Notes under the pieces: generated by a model
What the model was told of the DNA's origin: nothing
Database searches by the model: none
Seen by the model: only the letters and a program-made list of their open reading frames with translations
Translations under genes and position numbers: made by a program
NCBI RefSeq assembly: GCF_024256385.1
Contig: NZ_JAMLFW010000001.1
Coordinates: 496,001-560,000, forward strand
Direction of reading: 5' to 3'
DNA: 64,000 nucleotides
Origin: Anatilimnocola floriformis
Lineage (GTDB): Bacteria; Planctomycetota; Planctomycetia; Pirellulales; Pirellulaceae
Part shown: positions 41,083 through 54,566 of the stretch, piece by piece
Layout: each line of letters begins with the position of its first letter
Numbering within the stretch: position 1 is the first letter of the stretch

Positions 41083-41140
41083 ACTTCCTCGCCTCGGTAC
41101 TCCGCGTAAAAACCTGGGGAGAGCGTTGGGGTGAGGGGCC
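41083..41140 (+). repeat. Palindromic repeat, family A, longer variant
   Basis: ACTTCCTCGCCTCGGTACTC then CGCGTAAAAACCTGGGGAGA and GCGTTGGGGTGAGGGGC. Starts 6 nt after the stop, sense orientation. The loop region is expanded compared with the other copies. Confidence 0.8.
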
Positions 41141-41181
41141 GTTCGGCGAGTTCTTTCTGCGCATGTAAAAGAGTCGATCTT

Positions 41182-42534
41182 ATGAATCTCTCACCCACCG
41201 AAGCCTGGCTCCCCTACGAACCCTCGCCAGCCCAACCCTTCGACCGCCGCGCCGCCGCTCATCTCTTCCGCCGCGCCGGTTTCGCCGCCACCTTCGCCGA
41301 ACTCAACCAAGCCGTCGAACGTGGTCCGCAAGCCACTACGCAGCGTCTCCTCGCGGGTGAACGCGGCAGCGAACCCTTCGCCGACAGTATGCAGCGATTC
41401 GCCACGTCCGTCCTCGGCCGCGACAGCACCGAAGCCCTCGCTTCGTGGTGGCTGTATCGCATGCGGCACACACCGGCGCCCCTCCTCGAAAAAACAACCC
41501 TCTTCTGGCACGGCCATTTCGCGACGTCTGCCGCCAAGGTCAACGTAGCCAAGTTGATGCTGCGGCAGAATGATTTGCTTCGCGCGAACTGCTTCGGCGA
41601 TTTTCAGGCATTGGTGAAAGCGATCGGCCGCGATCCGGCCATGCTGCTCTACCTCGATTCATCGACCAACCGCAAAAACCATCCCAACGAAAACTTTGCC
41701 CGCGAGGTGCTGGAACTCTTCACGCTCGGCCCGGGTAATTACACCGAGCGCGACATTCAGCAGCTGGCCCGTTGCTACACCGGCTGGGAGATTCAGCACG
41801 AGGAATTCAAGTTCAACTCGTACCAGCACGACACCGCGAGCAAAACGATCTTCGGCCGGAGCGGCGATTTCGACGGCGACAGCGCGCTGCCGATTGTCTT
41901 CGATCAGCCCGCTGCGGCGACTTTCACGGTAACCAAGCTGGTCCGCTACTTCGTCGCCGATGAAGCTTATCTGTCGCCTGAATGGATCGCGCCACTTGCG
42001 CAGCAGTTTCGCGCTTCGCAATTTCAAGTCAAGCCGCTGCTTGAGACGATTCTCTCGAGTCGGTTGTTCTATTCGCCGGAAGTGCGCGGCGCGAAAGTTC
42101 GTTCGCCGGTCGAACTGACGATTGGATTCTTGCGCAGCTTCGATGCCGGCGCCAATCTGCAAAATTTGGTGAGCGGCCTGCGCGGCCTTGGTCAGCTGCC
42201 GCTGTTTCCACCGAACGTGAAGGGTTGGAATGGTGGCCGGCAGTGGATCAATGCGTCGACGATCGTGGCCCGCGCGAACCTGATGAAGAAGCTGATTCAG
42301 GAAGCGAGTGGCCGATTCGGCGGCACATCGCTGGTCGAATGGCTGAAGCAACATGGCATGGAACGCGGTAAGGATGCCGTCGCCGGGCTCACTGATTTGC
42401 TGCTGCCTGTCGCGTCCCCCGCCGATGTGCAGGAAAAACTAGCGGCCGCTTTCGATACGACCAAAGACCGTGAGAACGCTGTGCAGAATGCGCTGCATAT
42501 GTTCTGCACGTTGCCGGAATACCAATTGAGCTGA
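41182..42534 (+). CDS. DUF1800 family protein
   Basis: A 450-residue DUF1800 protein, a family of unknown function usually encoded directly upstream of a DUF1501 gene, as here (7 nt gap). Recognisable parts are AAHLFRRAGFAATFAELNQAVERGP at the N-terminus, TLFWHGHFATSAAKV, NENFAREVLELFTLG and FPPNVKGWNGGRQWINASTI. The ATG giving MNLSPTEAW is preferred over an upstream start in repeat-derived sequence. It likely acts with the DUF1501 product; location is uncertain as no clear signal peptide is seen. Confidence 0.88.
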   Translation: MNLSPTEAWLPYEPSPAQPFDRRAAAHLFRRAGFAATFAELNQAVERGPQATTQRLLAGERGSEPFADSMQRFATSVLGRDSTEALASWWLYRMRHTPAPLLEKTTLFWHGHFATSAAKVNVAKLMLRQNDLLRANCFGDFQALVKAIGRDPAMLLYLDSSTNRKNHPNENFAREVLELFTLGPGNYTERDIQQLARCYTGWEIQHEEFKFNSYQHDTASKTIFGRSGDFDGDSALPIVFDQPAAATFTVTKLVRYFVADEAYLSPEWIAPLAQQFRASQFQVKPLLETILSSRLFYSPEVRGAKVRSPVELTIGFLRSFDAGANLQNLVSGLRGLGQLPLFPPNVKGWNGGRQWINASTIVARANLMKKLIQEASGRFGGTSLVEWLKQHGMERGKDAVAGLTDLLLPVASPADVQEKLAAAFDTTKDRENAVQNALHMFCTLPEYQLS

Positions 42535-42541
42535 GGACGTT

Positions 42542-43795
42542 ATGCAAAACTACACGCGTCGCCGTTTTCTCGCCGATGTTTCGGCTTCGGCTGCGACTGC
42601 CGGGATGATCTCGCTCGCCGGCAGCACGCCGTTGTTCCTCACCGAATCGGCGGCCGCTGCCGCCGAGCAAAAAGGGGATAACATCCTCGTTGTCGTGCAA
42701 CTCAGCGGCGGCAACGATGGCTTGAACACGGTCATTCCGTACAAGCACGAGCTCTACAAAAAGGCTCGGCCGAGCCTGGGGCAAGATGCCGCGACGGTCA
42801 TCAAGCTGAAGGACGATCTGGGCCTGCACACCGCACTGAAGGGCTTCGGCAAGTTGTGGGAAGCTGGCCAACTTGCGATCGTGCAGGGCGTCGGTTATCC
42901 CAACCCGAATCGTTCGCACTTTGAGTCGATGGATATCTGGCACACGGCGAACTTGAAGATCGGCGATCGAACGAGCGGTTGGTTGGGGCGGACGTTCGAT
43001 CGTCTCAAGCTCGATCGGCCGCAACTTGAAAACGCAGAGTCTTCACCGGCGCTGCATCTCGGCGGAGAAGAACAACCCCTCGCGCTGGCCGCCCGCGACG
43101 TGCCAACGCCGTCGATCACTTCGCTTGATCAGTTCAAGCTCGATACCGGGAGAAGCGAACCTCGTCGGCAAGCTATCGAAACGGCAGCAGCAGCGGCGCG
43201 ACCGGCTGAGAACGATCTGCTGAAGTTTGTCGCCACACGTTCGACGGCGGCGCTCAAGCTGTCGCATCATTTGGAGCAGGCCGCAAAGGAATACTCGACG
43301 AACGTCAAATATCCGGAGACACAACTCGCTGGCAAGCTGAAGCAAGTCGCGCAGCTCATCGATGCTGGCCTCGGTAATCGCGTTTACTATGTCACACTCG
43401 ATGGCTTCGATACGCACAGCGAGCAAGCCGCCGCTCACCAGGGCTTGTTGCAGCAATTGGGCGACGCTCTGTTTTCATTCACCGAGGATTTGAAAGCTCA
43501 CGGCCATGCGGAGCGCGTGGCATCGCTCGTCTTCAGCGAGTTCGGCCGGCGCGTGCAAGAGAACAGCAGTCGCGGTACCGATCATGGCGCGGCAGCGCCG
43601 GCCTTTGTCATCGGCAGCAAAGTAAAAGCCGGTTTGATCGGCGTGCATCCGAAACTGGATGACCTCGACGACGGCGATTTGAAATTCCACACCGACTTCC
43701 GCAGTGTGTATTCGTCGCTACTGACCAACTGGCTAAAGTGGCCGACGCAACCGGGAATTGCCGATGCCGTGCGAAGCGTGGAACTATTCTCGTAA
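42542..43795 (+). CDS. DUF1501 family protein, Tat-exported
   Basis: A 417-residue DUF1501 protein partnered with the DUF1800 gene 7 nt upstream. Tat-like leader TRRRFLADVSASAATAGMISLAG. The core has ILVVVQLSGGNDGLNTVIPY, GYPNPNRSHFESMDIWHTA and SEFGRRVQENSSRGTDHGAA, all typical of the short form of the family. The function is unknown; the fold is related to alkaline phosphatase/sulfatase. The pair is a common two-gene operon across bacteria. Confidence 0.9.
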   Translation: MQNYTRRRFLADVSASAATAGMISLAGSTPLFLTESAAAAAEQKGDNILVVVQLSGGNDGLNTVIPYKHELYKKARPSLGQDAATVIKLKDDLGLHTALKGFGKLWEAGQLAIVQGVGYPNPNRSHFESMDIWHTANLKIGDRTSGWLGRTFDRLKLDRPQLENAESSPALHLGGEEQPLALAARDVPTPSITSLDQFKLDTGRSEPRRQAIETAAAAARPAENDLLKFVATRSTAALKLSHHLEQAAKEYSTNVKYPETQLAGKLKQVAQLIDAGLGNRVYYVTLDGFDTHSEQAAAHQGLLQQLGDALFSFTEDLKAHGHAERVASLVFSEFGRRVQENSSRGTDHGAAAPAFVIGSKVKAGLIGVHPKLDDLDDGDLKFHTDFRSVYSSLLTNWLKWPTQPGIADAVRSVELFS

Positions 43796-45925: not shown

Positions 45926-47665
45926 ATGCCGATCAAGCGAACCTTCGCCGCAACTATCTGGTGTGGAATGCTGCTGGTCGCGAATGCCGCGCTGGGGCAA
46001 GGCGCCGGGCCGCCGCCGAACTATCAGAACAGCGGTGGCAACTACGCCCCCAATGGCGCGCCGAACACGGTGCCCACGGGCTATCCCGCTTATCCGAACA
46101 TGCGGCCGCCGGCGCTGCGCGACGATCAGCAAAACATGCCGCCGAATGCCAATCCGCACGACATCAATCGCGCGCTCAATCCCAACGGCCCGCCGCCGGA
46201 CGGCAAGCCGCAGGAAAATCCGCAGCTGGTTGTCGACGTGCAGATTCTGGGCATCGAAAAGTCGCGTGAGCACACGGTGCAGAAGTATCTGCATACTCGC
46301 CGCGACAAAGAGTTCGATCCGGAAATGGTGCAAGGCGACGTTCGCCGGCTCGTCAGTTCGGGGCAGTTTCGCGACGTGCGCACGTACACCCGGCCGGCCG
46401 CCAACGGCATCATTGTGATCTATGAAATCTTCGAACGGCCGCGCATCAAATACATCAAGCACATCGGCAATCGCGATGCCGGCGAAAAGAAGCTCGCCAA
46501 GGAACACGCCCTGAAAGTCGGCGATCCGCTCAACGCTTATAACGCCGAAGAGGGCCGCCGCAAGATCGAGGAGTGGTATCACAAGAACGGCCATCCCAAG
46601 GCCCAGGTGTCGATCATGGAAGGAGACAAGCCGAACGACAAAGGGCTGGTCTATTACATCAACGAAGGAAACCTGGAACGGATCGAAACAGTCTCGTTCC
46701 GCGGCAACACCGTGGCCAGTGATCAGCGGTTGAAGACGCAAATCGAATCGAAGCCCGGTTGGTTCTACTATTTCTTCGGCGGCAAGGTGGATCGGGCGAA
46801 GCTCGATTCGGATGTCGAGAAGCTGACTGCTTATTACCGCCGGCTCGGTTACTTTCGCGCTCGCGTCGCCCGCGAGTTGGATATGGATGAAAGCGGCAAA
46901 TGGGTCACGCTAACGTTTGTCATCGACGAAGGCCCACGCTATGTCGTTCGCAGCGTGAAGATCGAAGGGGTCGCGAATTTTCCAGAAGCACCGCTGCTCG
47001 GTTTCATGGATATCAAGGCCGGTGAGTATTTCCATCAGGACAAGATGAACAAGGACATTACCACGCTGACCGATTTGTACGGCAGCAAGGGCTTTGTCTT
47101 TGCCGACGTGCAAGCCGATCCGCGGTTCCTCGAGGAGCCGGGCCAGATCGATCTGGTGTATCGCGTCAAGGAAGGCGAAGTCTTTCACATTGGCGATATC
47201 AACGTGCACGTCGGCGGCGAATATCCCCACACCCGCGATGCAGTGGTGCTGGTGCGTTCTGGTTTGATGCCCGGTGACCTGGCCGACATGCGGAAGATTC
47301 GTGACTGGGAACGTCGGTTGAAGTCGTCACAGTTGTTCGAAACCAATCCGCAACAAGGCGACGCGCCGCGGGTGGCCCTCGGCACGCCGTCGGTCGGCAA
47401 TGCAGCCAATATTGCCAAGGGCAAAGGAAGCAACGGACCAACCATCCGCGGCCAATCGCCCGACTATGGCCCGCCTCATCGCGCACCCTATGTGCCGCAA
47501 CCACTCAACCAGCCGCTGTATCAAACCGGCCGGTATGACGCGCCCGCTCAGCCGCAAATTCCGCAGCAGCCCGCTTATACACCGCCGCTGCAATTTAATC
47601 CCCCAACATCGGATTTTCCCGCTTCGCCACTTCCTCAAAATCGCGTTGATTTTTGGGGAAACTAG
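45926..47665 (+). CDS. Secreted protein with five POTRA-like repeats and no barrel (split BamA, part 1)
   Basis: A 579-residue exported protein with signal peptide TFAATIWCGMLLVANAALG. After a Pro/Asn-rich stretch (about 27-100) come five POTRA-like repeats: 101-171, 172-249, 250-337, 338-418 and 419-485, with typical VDVQILGIEKS, VSFRGNTVASDQRLK, GYFRARVARELD and VKIEGVANF segments. BamA also has five POTRA units, but there a beta-barrel follows at once; here the chain ends in about 95 Pro/Gln/Tyr-rich residues and stops. The barrel is encoded 95 nt downstream. It should act in outer-membrane protein insertion as the periplasmic half of a two-protein Omp85 machine. Confidence 0.88.
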   Translation: MPIKRTFAATIWCGMLLVANAALGQGAGPPPNYQNSGGNYAPNGAPNTVPTGYPAYPNMRPPALRDDQQNMPPNANPHDINRALNPNGPPPDGKPQENPQLVVDVQILGIEKSREHTVQKYLHTRRDKEFDPEMVQGDVRRLVSSGQFRDVRTYTRPAANGIIVIYEIFERPRIKYIKHIGNRDAGEKKLAKEHALKVGDPLNAYNAEEGRRKIEEWYHKNGHPKAQVSIMEGDKPNDKGLVYYINEGNLERIETVSFRGNTVASDQRLKTQIESKPGWFYYFFGGKVDRAKLDSDVEKLTAYYRRLGYFRARVARELDMDESGKWVTLTFVIDEGPRYVVRSVKIEGVANFPEAPLLGFMDIKAGEYFHQDKMNKDITTLTDLYGSKGFVFADVQADPRFLEEPGQIDLVYRVKEGEVFHIGDINVHVGGEYPHTRDAVVLVRSGLMPGDLADMRKIRDWERRLKSSQLFETNPQQGDAPRVALGTPSVGNAANIAKGKGSNGPTIRGQSPDYGPPHRAPYVPQPLNQPLYQTGRYDAPAQPQIPQQPAYTPPLQFNPPTSDFPASPLPQNRVDFWGN

Positions 47666-47760
47666 CGCTGACGAAACTTTGACAATCCCGTAAAGTCCGC
47701 GCCACTTATCGATAGTCGACTGCTGCGACTAACGCAGGCCTGCTCAGGAACCACCCGCTG

Positions 47761-49311
47761 ATGACCCGCAAGCTGCAATGCCGAACGCTCTGGACCCAAG
47801 TGGCCCAGTTCCGCGTATTTCCGGCCATGGCGCTCGCGTGTGGAACGCTGCTCATTCTCTTATTCAGCGTTGATTCAGCTCGCGGTCAGTATTACCCGCC
47901 GCAAGGTCCGCCGACGAATTACGGCGCCAATCCTTACTTGCAACAACAGCCTGCCGCTCAGCCAGGTTACGCGCCGCAACCGGGCTATGCACCACAGCCG
48001 GCATACAATGGCCAACCGAACTACGGCCAACCCGTGTCGGCGCCAGGCGGATTCAATTCGCCGAATCCTTATCTGCAAGCTGGTCCGGGTGGACCAACAA
48101 CCGCCTATCAACCCGCGCTGCCACCGCCGCCAGGAATGCCGCCATCGGGCTCGCCGATGATCAATCCCAACGGCTCGCCGTTTAATCCTCCTTCGCCGCT
48201 CGATAGTGCGCCGCAGTACTTGCAGCCCGAACCCAACACCACGCCCCTCGATGTCTATGTCGAAGAGACCCGCACGGGCCGCTTCATGTTCGGCGTGGCG
48301 GTGAATAGCGATGCAGGCGTGACGGGGCAGATCACGATCGACGAACGCAACTTCGACATCATGCGTCCCGCCACCACTTGGGACGACTTCATGAACGGCA
48401 CGGCCTGGCGCGGAGCTGGCCAAGGCTTTCGCATCGAAGCTCAGCCTGGTAACCAAGTACAGCGGTACATGGTCAGCTTCACCGATCCGTACTTCCTCTA
48501 TACGAACATCAGCTTCAGCGCGAGTGCGTTCTACTTCGACCGTGGTTACTACGACTGGTCGGAATCGCGTTACGGTGGCCGCCTCGCTTGGGGTTATCGT
48601 CTGACGCCCGACCTCTCGGTGACCACCGCACTACGAGCCGAAAACATCAACCTCTTCAATCCTCGCGTGCTCACCGTGCCGGAGCTGAACTCCGCACTCG
48701 GTAAGACGGATCTCTTCAGCGGCAAACTGACGCTGACGCACGATACTCGCGACTTGCCTTTCATGCCGACCGAAGGTCACATGATTGAAATGTCGTACGA
48801 GCAGGCCTTTGGCGATTACGACTTTCCGCGCGGCGGCATCGATTACTACCAGTACTTCCTGCTGAACCAACGCCCCGACGGTTCGGGCCGTCACACTCTG
48901 GCCTTCAGCAGCCGACTCGGTGTCACCGGTTCGCAAACGCCGATTTTCGAAAACTACTTCGCGGGTGGTTTCTCGACGATCCGCGGTTACTCGTTCCGCG
49001 GTGCCTCGCCTATCGAAAATGGTGTGCGCGTCGGTGGTGAGTTGAGCTGGCTCAACTCGGTTGAATACTTCTTCCCGCTCACAGCCGACGACATGGTCAA
49101 GGGAACCGTCTTCTGCGACTTTGGTACGGTCGAGCGAGACATCGCCATCCGTGGCGAAAACTTCCGCGTCGCGCCGGGCTTCGGCCTTCGCATTAATGTG
49201 CCGGCCCTCGGCCCCGCGCCGCTGGCTCTCGACTTTGCATTCCCGATTCACTCAGCGACGGGTGACGACCGGCAAATGTTCAGCTTCTTCTTTGGCTTGT
49301 CTCGCCAATAG
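47761..49311 (+). CDS. Omp85-type outer-membrane beta-barrel without POTRA (split BamA, part 2)
   Basis: A 516-residue outer-membrane protein. Hydrophobic signal (MALACGTLLILLFSVDSARG), then about 115 residues rich in Pro, Gln, Tyr and Gly (including repeated PGYAPQ), and a barrel from about 161 to the end. The barrel has alternating strands, TDPYFLYTNISFSAS, DTRDLPFMPTEGHMIEMSYEQAF, and the Omp85 signature FSTIRGYSFR (R408-G-Y, matching the VRGF/Y lid loop), and ends in a Phe-rich last strand (MFSFFFGL). No POTRA unit is present. It follows the POTRA gene by 95 nt on the same strand and has its own signal peptide, so this is not a frameshift. Confidence 0.88.
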   Translation: MTRKLQCRTLWTQVAQFRVFPAMALACGTLLILLFSVDSARGQYYPPQGPPTNYGANPYLQQQPAAQPGYAPQPGYAPQPAYNGQPNYGQPVSAPGGFNSPNPYLQAGPGGPTTAYQPALPPPPGMPPSGSPMINPNGSPFNPPSPLDSAPQYLQPEPNTTPLDVYVEETRTGRFMFGVAVNSDAGVTGQITIDERNFDIMRPATTWDDFMNGTAWRGAGQGFRIEAQPGNQVQRYMVSFTDPYFLYTNISFSASAFYFDRGYYDWSESRYGGRLAWGYRLTPDLSVTTALRAENINLFNPRVLTVPELNSALGKTDLFSGKLTLTHDTRDLPFMPTEGHMIEMSYEQAFGDYDFPRGGIDYYQYFLLNQRPDGSGRHTLAFSSRLGVTGSQTPIFENYFAGGFSTIRGYSFRGASPIENGVRVGGELSWLNSVEYFFPLTADDMVKGTVFCDFGTVERDIAIRGENFRVAPGFGLRINVPALGPAPLALDFAFPIHSATGDDRQMFSFFFGLSRQ

Positions 49312-51730: not shown

Positions 51731-52164
51731 GGCTGCTCCTCCACGGGAGCAGGGCGATGTTTCCAAGCACTCAGTTCGATCGGCTGCACGCGATTGCCAG
51801 CCGGATCGCGCCACTCGACCCACACGCGAATCTGCCGCGAGGCGTCGTCGTCCAGCGCGACTACTTCGCTGTGCATCGTCGCCGTCTTCAGCAACAGCAG
51901 CACATCTTCCGGAGCGGCCTCGTCGGTGACCACGCGAACTGCGAGTTGCTCCCAAGTTTGGGCCTGCAGCACGTCCAGCCGATTGGCCACAGCCCGCAGC
52001 GCCGCCTGGCGGGCATCGGTCGCTCGTTCTTGCCGCGCGATCAGGTGCAGCAACTGAGCCACCACGAGCGCGCAGGCCACGAACATGGCTGACGCGATGG
52101 TCATTTCCAAAATCGTGAAGGCGCTGCGATGCGCAGCGGCGCGATGTGCGGGGCGTCGCTTCAC
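51727..52164 (-). CDS. Pseudopilin-like protein, GspI type
   Basis: A 145-residue protein. The proposed start is a GTG sharing one base with the stop of the GspF-fusion gene (TAGTG). The leader KRRPAHRAAAHRSAFTILEMTIASAMFVACALVVAQLL has the position-5 Glu of prepilins. The C-terminal domain has RVWVEWRDPAGNRVQPIELS. The shape fits GspI/PilV-type minor pseudopilins. No ATG is available near the leader. Confidence 0.72.
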   Translation of the reverse strand: MKRRPAHRAAAHRSAFTILEMTIASAMFVACALVVAQLLHLIARQERATDARQAALRAVANRLDVLQAQTWEQLAVRVVTDEAAPEDVLLLLKTATMHSEVVALDDDASRQIRVWVEWRDPAGNRVQPIELSAWKHRPAPVEEQP

Positions 52165-54566
52165 TAGGAAAGTCCTTGAATGAGGGCGATCAGTGGCAGC
52201 ATAAGACTGACGACGACGAAAGCCACAAACGTGCCGAATATCAGCAGCAGAATCGGATGCAAGATTTGATGCAACAGCGTGAGCCGATAAGTCATCCGGC
52301 GCATCAGCGAGTCTCCCATTTCGTCGAGCGCCCAAGGCAAATTGTCGGCGCGGGCGGCCGCTTGCAACACCGCGACCTCGGCGGGGCCGAGTAACCATTG
52401 TCGCTGCATGGCCGGTAGCCAATTGCCACCCTGTTCCACATCAAGCGCGACCTGACTTAGTCGGCGGCGGACACTGCCGCGGGGATAAACGTTTGCCAGC
52501 AGGGTGAGGGCCTGCGGCAACGGCACGCGCTGTTCGAGCAGCAGCGACAAACTGCGCAACACGAGACTCGCGTCATACCGCCAGAAGAAGTACCGCAATC
52601 CTTTGAACAGATCCATGACGCGCGCAACATCAGCGACATTGGCATAACGGCGACGCGCCTGCGAGCCGAACACCACAGGAAAGTCATAACAGCCGGTGTA
52701 AAAAATCGTCGCCAGCGCACTGACGCCCAGCATGGCCAGCAACAGCGGCAGGAGCAACAGAAAGCCACCTCCCTTAATCCAATCGGCCATCTCAAACAGA
52801 AGCAGAGTGGGCGCCGGCAAACGCAGACCGAACTCATCGAACATCCGGCGAAACACCAATACAAAGCCGAACATGGAATAGGCGCTGACCAAGAGCATCG
52901 TCAGCACCAGGCCGCAAAAATAGAGGAGGCGATTGACGATGACCCGGAAGGCAGCATCCGAATCGCTGACCCAGTTGAGTTGCGTCCGCAAGGCCAGGCC
53001 GCGGGCCACCAATACATCGCTCAAGTTCACGGCCAGTCGTTGAGCGGTATTCAGTCGCAGTCGCGCGCCGCGGGCAGCCGCCGAAAGAGTCACGCCAGCT
53101 TCCAATTGCGTTGCCAAGCGGTACGCGCGAGCGCCCGTATCGCCCACATTTTCAGCGGCAAATGCCAAGGCTGACTCGGGGAGCGGGATTCCTTTGTCGG
53201 CCGCGAACGCCAGGGAATTGATCAGGGCTTGATGCTCGCCGAGGCGATAGCGATCGACAAGCATCATCAGGGCCAGACCGCACAACGGCAGGAAAAGGAG
53301 GCTCAGCCACGAGAGCCCACTGATGATGATGCCGACGAGCCCGAGCAGAATCGTCAGCCAGGCCGCGGTCGTGAGAATGATGCGGGCCAGGTTCGAACGA
53401 ATGACACGTTTGCGATGCAAGATTTGCAGCGAGACGAGGATTGCCAGGCCGGGAACGATCAAGATCGACCACGATGTCGCTCGCGCGCCTTCCATCAGTT
53501 CGCGCAGTGCTGGCATGGAGCTGGGAGATGGTGTGCCCCAGGAAGTCATCAGGTCAGTAAAGACTCGCAACGGGACGATGCAAGCTGCGGCCATGGCGGC
53601 GTACAACCCGCCAGCCAGCAAGTAGATCACCGTCGGCGCGAGCAGCATGATGAGCGACGCCTGCGCCTGGAGCCGGGCATCGAGCATCTCTGCCGCCACA
53701 CGACAAGTCGCGGGCAGAGTGTCAGTCCGTTCGCCCACGCGAATCAGCGGTAAGGTCGATTCTGGCAATCCCGGAACGGCCTCGGCTGCCCGCGTGAGCG
53801 TTGATCCTTGCTCGACGCGCTGGGCCAGCACATCGGCATGCCGAGCGAGCGCTGCATCGGCAATTCCGCAGCCGGTAAGTCGCAAGGCCTCCGGCAGAGC
53901 GATTTGCCGCTCCAGCATGATCGCCAGTGCTCGATAGAATTCGCTGCTGCCGCTCCAGTGCCACAAGGGTCCAAAGATCGGCGTCACCGACATCCATTGA
54001 GACCACCCTCTGCGCCCGCCAATGACGCGGACAAGCAGCAGCAAGATGGCGGCGCCGCCGAGCAGCAGCAGTGAGAGAGACGCTGCTTTCCGGGCAATTT
54101 CATATGTCGCCAGGAAGGCTTGCGAAGTCTGCCATCCCATATCTTCGACAACTTGGCGCAGAACCGGCCCGACGTGAAATGCCAGAAAGAGGAATAGCAG
54201 GTACGTACCCGCGAGCGTCACCAACGGATAGGTGAGCGACTGAACTACGTTTCGCCAATGCGCGCCGGCTTGCTGCCGCGCGAGAAGCCATTCGGTAATC
54301 GCACTGCTCGGATCGCCCGTGGCGAGCGACGCCTTCAAGAGTCCCGACAGCGACGCGGGCAACGGCGAATTTTTGGTGAGGATCTGCGGCAGCGGTTCGC
54401 CGGTTTGGATGCGCTGAGCAACAGCGCGGAGCGACTTCGCCAGACGTCGATCGGGTGTGCTATCGGCGGCGGCGAGCAGCGCTTCGGCCAATGGCAGGCT
54501 GGACTGCGTCCCTTGCACAAGCAGTTGCGCGAGTTCGGTCGTCGAGTTGGCAGTGGTTTCAGCCAC
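52164..54566 (-). CDS. Tandem GspF fusion protein (two type II secretion F units)
   Basis: An 800-residue inner-membrane protein. GspF/PilC proteins are usually about 400 residues with two T2SSF domains. Here two such units are fused: first unit with cytoplasmic domains near 10-125 (LLVQGTQSSLPLAEALLAAAD) and 205-325 (FYRALAIMLERQIALPEALRL), second with LINSLAFAADKGIPLPESALAF (about 435-560) and LRSLSLLLEQRVPLPQALTLL (about 670-780), linked by extra membrane helices (about 345-425). GspF links the assembly ATPase to pilin addition. The start is a GTG directly after the upstream stop. The domains are diverged, not recent copies. Confidence 0.85.
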   Translation of the reverse strand: MAETTANSTTELAQLLVQGTQSSLPLAEALLAAADSTPDRRLAKSLRAVAQRIQTGEPLPQILTKNSPLPASLSGLLKASLATGDPSSAITEWLLARQQAGAHWRNVVQSLTYPLVTLAGTYLLFLFLAFHVGPVLRQVVEDMGWQTSQAFLATYEIARKAASLSLLLLGGAAILLLLVRVIGGRRGWSQWMSVTPIFGPLWHWSGSSEFYRALAIMLERQIALPEALRLTGCGIADAALARHADVLAQRVEQGSTLTRAAEAVPGLPESTLPLIRVGERTDTLPATCRVAAEMLDARLQAQASLIMLLAPTVIYLLAGGLYAAMAAACIVPLRVFTDLMTSWGTPSPSSMPALRELMEGARATSWSILIVPGLAILVSLQILHRKRVIRSNLARIILTTAAWLTILLGLVGIIISGLSWLSLLFLPLCGLALMMLVDRYRLGEHQALINSLAFAADKGIPLPESALAFAAENVGDTGARAYRLATQLEAGVTLSAAARGARLRLNTAQRLAVNLSDVLVARGLALRTQLNWVSDSDAAFRVIVNRLLYFCGLVLTMLLVSAYSMFGFVLVFRRMFDEFGLRLPAPTLLLFEMADWIKGGGFLLLLPLLLAMLGVSALATIFYTGCYDFPVVFGSQARRRYANVADVARVMDLFKGLRYFFWRYDASLVLRSLSLLLEQRVPLPQALTLLANVYPRGSVRRRLSQVALDVEQGGNWLPAMQRQWLLGPAEVAVLQAAARADNLPWALDEMGDSLMRRMTYRLTLLHQILHPILLLIFGTFVAFVVVSLMLPLIALIQGLS

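Follow-up and report, generated by a model that had tools for sequence, protein, structure and literature searches.

BamA of Pirellulaceae is encoded as two exported proteins, with a cut placed by alignment inside POTRA5

BamA elsewhere is one conserved polypeptide, in which the fifth POTRA domain runs straight into the β-barrel. A locus of Anatilimnocola floriformis, within the 64,000-nucleotide stretch analysed here (the window), raises the question of whether a POTRA gene and the barrel gene that follows it together make up the BamA of this organism and, if so, where the protein was divided and how its two halves would work. A first-pass annotation had described two open reading frames 95 nt apart, the second encoding a barrel with an RGY lid, and the reading frames, the Pfam matches and an IRGY motif all agree with that layout (Table 1). 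Pfam finds four POTRA stretches in the POTRA chain (4e-49) and one Omp85 barrel, PF01103, in the barrel chain (1.8e-48), while the reading frames of the two genes differ. By eye, each chain begins with what resembles a signal peptide, in line with the export signals already proposed, and in a simple scan of the 95-nt gap nothing resembling a promoter turned up in the region, nor anything resembling a terminator on the + strand. Elsewhere in the window, DUF1800 and DUF1501 genes lie adjacent at 41131-43795 (+), and a gene at 52164-54566 (-) that adjoins prepilin-like genes encodes a protein of 800 aa in which the T2SS F domain is matched in three stretches.

Table 1. Parts of the two-gene BamA locus, in window coordinates.
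Feature	Coordinates	Strand	Basis
POTRA-chain gene, 579 aa, first half of split BamA	45926..47665	+	ORF list; Pfam; TIGR03303
POTRA-chain signal peptide (MPIKRTFAATIWCGMLLVANAALGQ), type I by eye	45926..46000	+	sequence
POTRA1 to POTRA4, each complete	46220..47176	+	Pfam; model pLDDT mostly >= 95
POTRA5 without its last strand (b1-a1-a2-b2)	47177..47377	+	alignment; model; structural alignment
Pro/Gln-rich C-terminal tail of POTRA chain (95 residues), putative first half of former linker	47378..47662	+	alignment; pLDDT mostly < 50
[VI]RGQSP linear motif in POTRA-chain tail	47444..47460	+	motif search
Intergenic stretch, 95 nt	47666..47760	+	sequence
Barrel-chain gene, 516 aa, second half of split BamA	47761..49311	+	ORF list; Pfam; TIGR03303
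Barrel-chain signal peptide, type I by eye in the window	47761..47886	+	sequence
Pro/Gly/Gln/Tyr-rich N-terminal tail of barrel chain (about 115 residues), putative second half of former linker	47887..48228	+	alignment; motif counts
Last β-strand of POTRA5, b3 (TPLDVYVEET), on barrel chain	48241..48270	+	alignment; strand conservation; co-variation
Omp85 β-barrel	48271..49308	+	Pfam; TIGR03303
IRGY lid motif, counterpart of E. coli BamA VRGF	48979..48990	+	sequence

The BamA model TIGR03303 is shared out between the two chains, with model positions 3-372 on the POTRA chain and 382-738 on the barrel chain, and the separate halves score 226.9 and 164.5 bits, each below the curated score of 297 bits. 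The window genome (8.93 Mb, 99.5% complete) contains a single PF01103 match, all four of its PF07244 matches fall in the POTRA-chain gene, and no other Pfam POTRA match is found at E values up to 10. By this search the pair is the sole BamA and the only Omp85 of the organism, going beyond the earlier suggestion that it might be the main one, and the search for another full-length BamA, which had been proposed along with that suggestion, returned none. The genome also encodes OmpH/Skp-like proteins and YfiO-type TPR proteins, but no clear single BamD stood out. Both halves are under purifying selection: between the window and its congener, dN is 0.15 and dS 1.40 over residues 97-484 of the POTRA chain, and dN is 0.11 and dS 1.05 over residues 155-516 of the barrel chain, which places dN/dS at about 0.1 in both chain cores.

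The split extends across the family of the window, Pirellulaceae, Blastopirellula marina included. All ten genomes of the family in a class-wide sample searched with the BamA model have it (10/10), and a family search, which translates through stop codons and in which joined frames were re-inspected, matched 63 of 65 genomes, with a fused frame in none of the 63. Thirteen genomes of the family that appeared to be fused were rejected because each of these single-frame loci is divided by a stop codon lying between the halves. Classification of the 80 named loci gave 67 split, 8 fused and 5 interrupted by contig ends, so that 67 of the 75 resolvable loci are split; the unlinked halves seen in two genomes are likewise explained by contig ends. 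In other families, BamA is fused in six genomes of the window's order and in five of its class, and the comparison with related genomes proposed at the outset finds fused homologues, among the sampled genomes, only outside the family. As the split is kept across the sampled family, an assembly or sequencing error is excluded, including the error joining both frames that the first-pass annotation had named as a refutation. Split Pirellulaceae sequences group in a single clade (SH-aLRT 99) with barrel data and also with concatenated data, and the family shares the split by descent. One MAG outside this clade (L165) is split too, its barrel gene starting 2 nt after the POTRA stop; the starred branches of the tree suggest that this is perhaps a second, independent fission, although the AU test does not reject a single origin (p = 0.07).

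Comparison with undivided proteins indicates where the cut lies. In classic planctomycete BamA, the loop between strands b2 and b3 of POTRA5 has about 8 residues and b3 stands directly before TG[RQS], for example PPTVEVIPNELDNMFKDIRVRVRETRTGQF. In the window, the conserved part of the POTRA chain ends at b2 (APRVALGTP), that of the barrel chain starts with PLDVYVEETRTGRF, and the alignment places b3 (PLDVYVEE, before TGR) on the barrel chain. The POTRA chain aligns structurally with residues 24-409 of E. coli BamA and thus ends within POTRA5, which we take to reach to about residue 421, so that the third POTRA5 strand is left to the barrel chain. On these alignments, the cut is between b2 and b3 of POTRA5. 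The count of five POTRAs on the first protein accordingly holds for four complete domains, the fifth lacking its last strand by alignment and structural alignment, and the description of the barrel protein as devoid of any POTRA has to be amended, since it keeps the last strand of POTRA5. An alignment that mixed fused rows with rows of POTRA or barrel alone misplaced POTRA5 and was not used.

Fused relatives in the class carry a Pro/Gln-rich low-complexity linker of 150-400 residues in the b2-b3 loop of POTRA5. Judged from the aligned sequences, the Pirellulaceae gene was cut within this linker, and fission came after linker insertion. The motif [VI]RGQSP recurs in the linkers of fused relatives and occurs once each in the tails of 37 of 68 split POTRA chains, where shuffling predicts 0.4, while 41 of 68 barrel tails hold 46 copies, where shuffling predicts 1.1; in the window it is present on the POTRA tail only. 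Because RGQSP is found on both sides of the cut family-wide, the tails are best read as two halves of one former linker; the initial guess had been that these facing tails could join the two halves of the protein. The fused BamA of Aeoliella straminimaris (L149), with its POTRA5 linker, resembles the pair in domain order, in the low-complexity site and in RGQSP, and differs from it in being one polypeptide. In the broader form [VI]RGQ[SND]P, this short linear motif is found far above its shuffled expectation in the BamA linkers and tails of Planctomycetia. A function of RGQSP as a genome-wide docking motif was considered and rejected, as among 10 pattern matches in the window genome only that of BamA lies in an apparent secreted tail. 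A strand-like stretch resembling b3, LDxDVYV, follows RGQSP in the tails of L088, L092, L093, L098, L101, L103, L105, L107, L112, L124, L125 and L161 and is also seen in linkers of fused relatives.

Set against known systems, the pair shares with BamA (TIGR03303) the Omp85 barrel, the RG[FY] lid, the status of single main Omp85 and a total of five POTRAs, a number reached only by both chains together (four complete and POTRA5 divided). It differs from BamA, a single polypeptide, in consisting of two polypeptides from two genes in different frames, with a signal peptide each, an apparent b2/b3 cut in POTRA5 and long low-complexity tails at the cut. Lipoprotein signals were assigned to about 60 of the 67 barrel chains, an approximate count because signal types were called by a simple home-made rule; those that look like type I are from the window, its congener, Rhodopirellula europaea, Neorhodopirellula and a small number of others. 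Heinz and Lithgow (2014, PMC4104836), in a text without mention of planctomycetes, described Omp85 classes that lack POTRAs or are lipoproteins. Like their 'noNterm' Omp85, the window barrel chain has no complete POTRA, but it has a POTRA partner gene just upstream, and a tail of >100 residues and the retained POTRA5 b3 precede its barrel. Most Pirellulaceae barrels, though not that of the window, resemble the Bacteroidetes Omp85 lipoproteins (TamL; PMC4104836) in having a lipid anchor before the Omp85 barrel, whereas in TamL three POTRAs share the chain with the barrel, and the protein is an extra paralogue instead of the sole BamA. The window barrel chain itself has no lipobox by eye, no POTRA domain and a score of 11.5 bits against NCBIfam TamL. 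BamA was listed for Pirellula and Blastopirellula by Speth and others (PMC3422733), with the split unremarked. In the open-access literature searched, which leaves most subscription papers outside, we found no published description of a split BamA or of a POTRA-only partner, and the novelty of the split is accordingly one of 'not found', not of 'proved absent'.

Because the break falls within a single domain, the two halves are likely to come together again through a shared strand. In 71 split barrel chains, the frequencies of hydrophobic residues at positions -11, -9, -7 and -5 before TGR are 0.85, 0.99, 0.99 and 0.87, an alternating pattern that b3 has kept, while the positions ahead of it are hydrophobic at about 0.3-0.4, which is nearly random. 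When the POTRA chain is modelled alone, POTRA1-4 are confident, but in POTRA5 b1 is unformed, b2 has 3 residues and there is no third strand. Some split POTRA chains stop 12-20 residues past b2, so that no cis strand is available in them. In an MI-APC analysis of 80 split pairs, POTRA5 accounts for 10 of the 20 strongest partners of b3 against 3.4 expected, and 32 other barrel windows reach at most 6; with one clade dropped, the b3-POTRA5 enrichment weakens to the range of the null (7, with a null maximum of 8), though the pair 333-567 ranks top both in the full set and after clade removal. From the conservation of b3, the incomplete predicted POTRA5 and the weak co-variation, we infer that the two chains dock, and the best reading of the pair is an insertase of two subunits that meet at POTRA5. 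The POTRA chain, consisting of POTRA1-4 and b1-a1-a2-b2 of POTRA5, would meet the barrel chain in the periplasm, where b3 at the barrel N-terminus would complete the POTRA5 sheet in trans and so restore a working insertase; in most relatives, the lipid anchor of the barrel chain would also tether its N-terminus to a membrane. We put the probability of an obligate two-chain BamA, with POTRA5 completed in trans by the strand of the barrel chain, at roughly 0.7.

It is possible, but a good deal less probable, that the chains act separately, with POTRA5 completed in cis by its own tail or left incomplete, the barrel serving as a POTRA-less Omp85 insertase, and contact, if any, made through RGQSP or a third protein. 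In the model of the fused relative L134 (pTM 0.41, POTRA5 pLDDT about 60-84), the barrel-side b3 does not form a strand, whereas RVLDINLH in the linker does (pLDDT near 77), and about 14 split POTRA chains by eye, or 8 by a strict pattern, have the LDxDVYV-like stretch after RGQSP that might do the same. POTRA-less Omp85 proteins are also known, and Sam50 functions without its POTRA (PMC4104836). However, the window and most split POTRA chains are without the LDxDVYV stretch, and the C-terminus of the POTRA chain in the window's congener is unlike that of the window, whereas b3 of the barrel chain is conserved throughout and POTRA5 is as conserved as the remaining POTRAs.

We consider it improbable that fission serves mainly to free the POTRA scaffold for several, exchangeable barrels. 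In two loci, L155 (1100-6400) and L156, a single POTRA gene does precede a tandem pair of barrel genes, with the POTRA5 b3 region in both barrels and the first barrel of each locus lipoprotein-type, but these are just 2 of the 67 split loci, and the window genome encodes a single barrel. A weak second match to the barrel part of BamA (E 2e-4, in a frame of 589 aa) was seen in another genome, G349, at C1:5046590-5046994, far from the main locus. That the halves are a single protein made by stop-codon read-through or frameshifting, the split being only apparent, is very unlikely: in 28 of 83 locus pairs the halves share one frame with one stop between them, but 13 of the 83 had been selected on that ground and without them the frame offsets are even (24, 24 and 22), as by chance, all three stop codon types are seen, the barrel chain carries a signal peptide of its own, in most cases with a lipobox, and the two halves in the window occupy different frames.

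Across Pirellulaceae, an essential outer-membrane insertase is produced as two proteins, each exported on its own, and the split explains why automatic annotation would show two partial BamA proteins. The fused relatives with a linker look like an intermediate step of gene fission in an essential gene. A two-chain BamA tests the extent of covalent linkage that the insertase needs and offers separable parts for mechanistic work. More tentatively, and as a reading that we hold to be doubtful, the pair may be a natural split-domain insertase, in which two chains jointly build the POTRA5 of every insertase, so that the scaffold can detach from, or swap between, barrels; if this were true, BAM assembly would be a reversible, regulated step in these bacteria, with two barrels per POTRA chain in some genomes.
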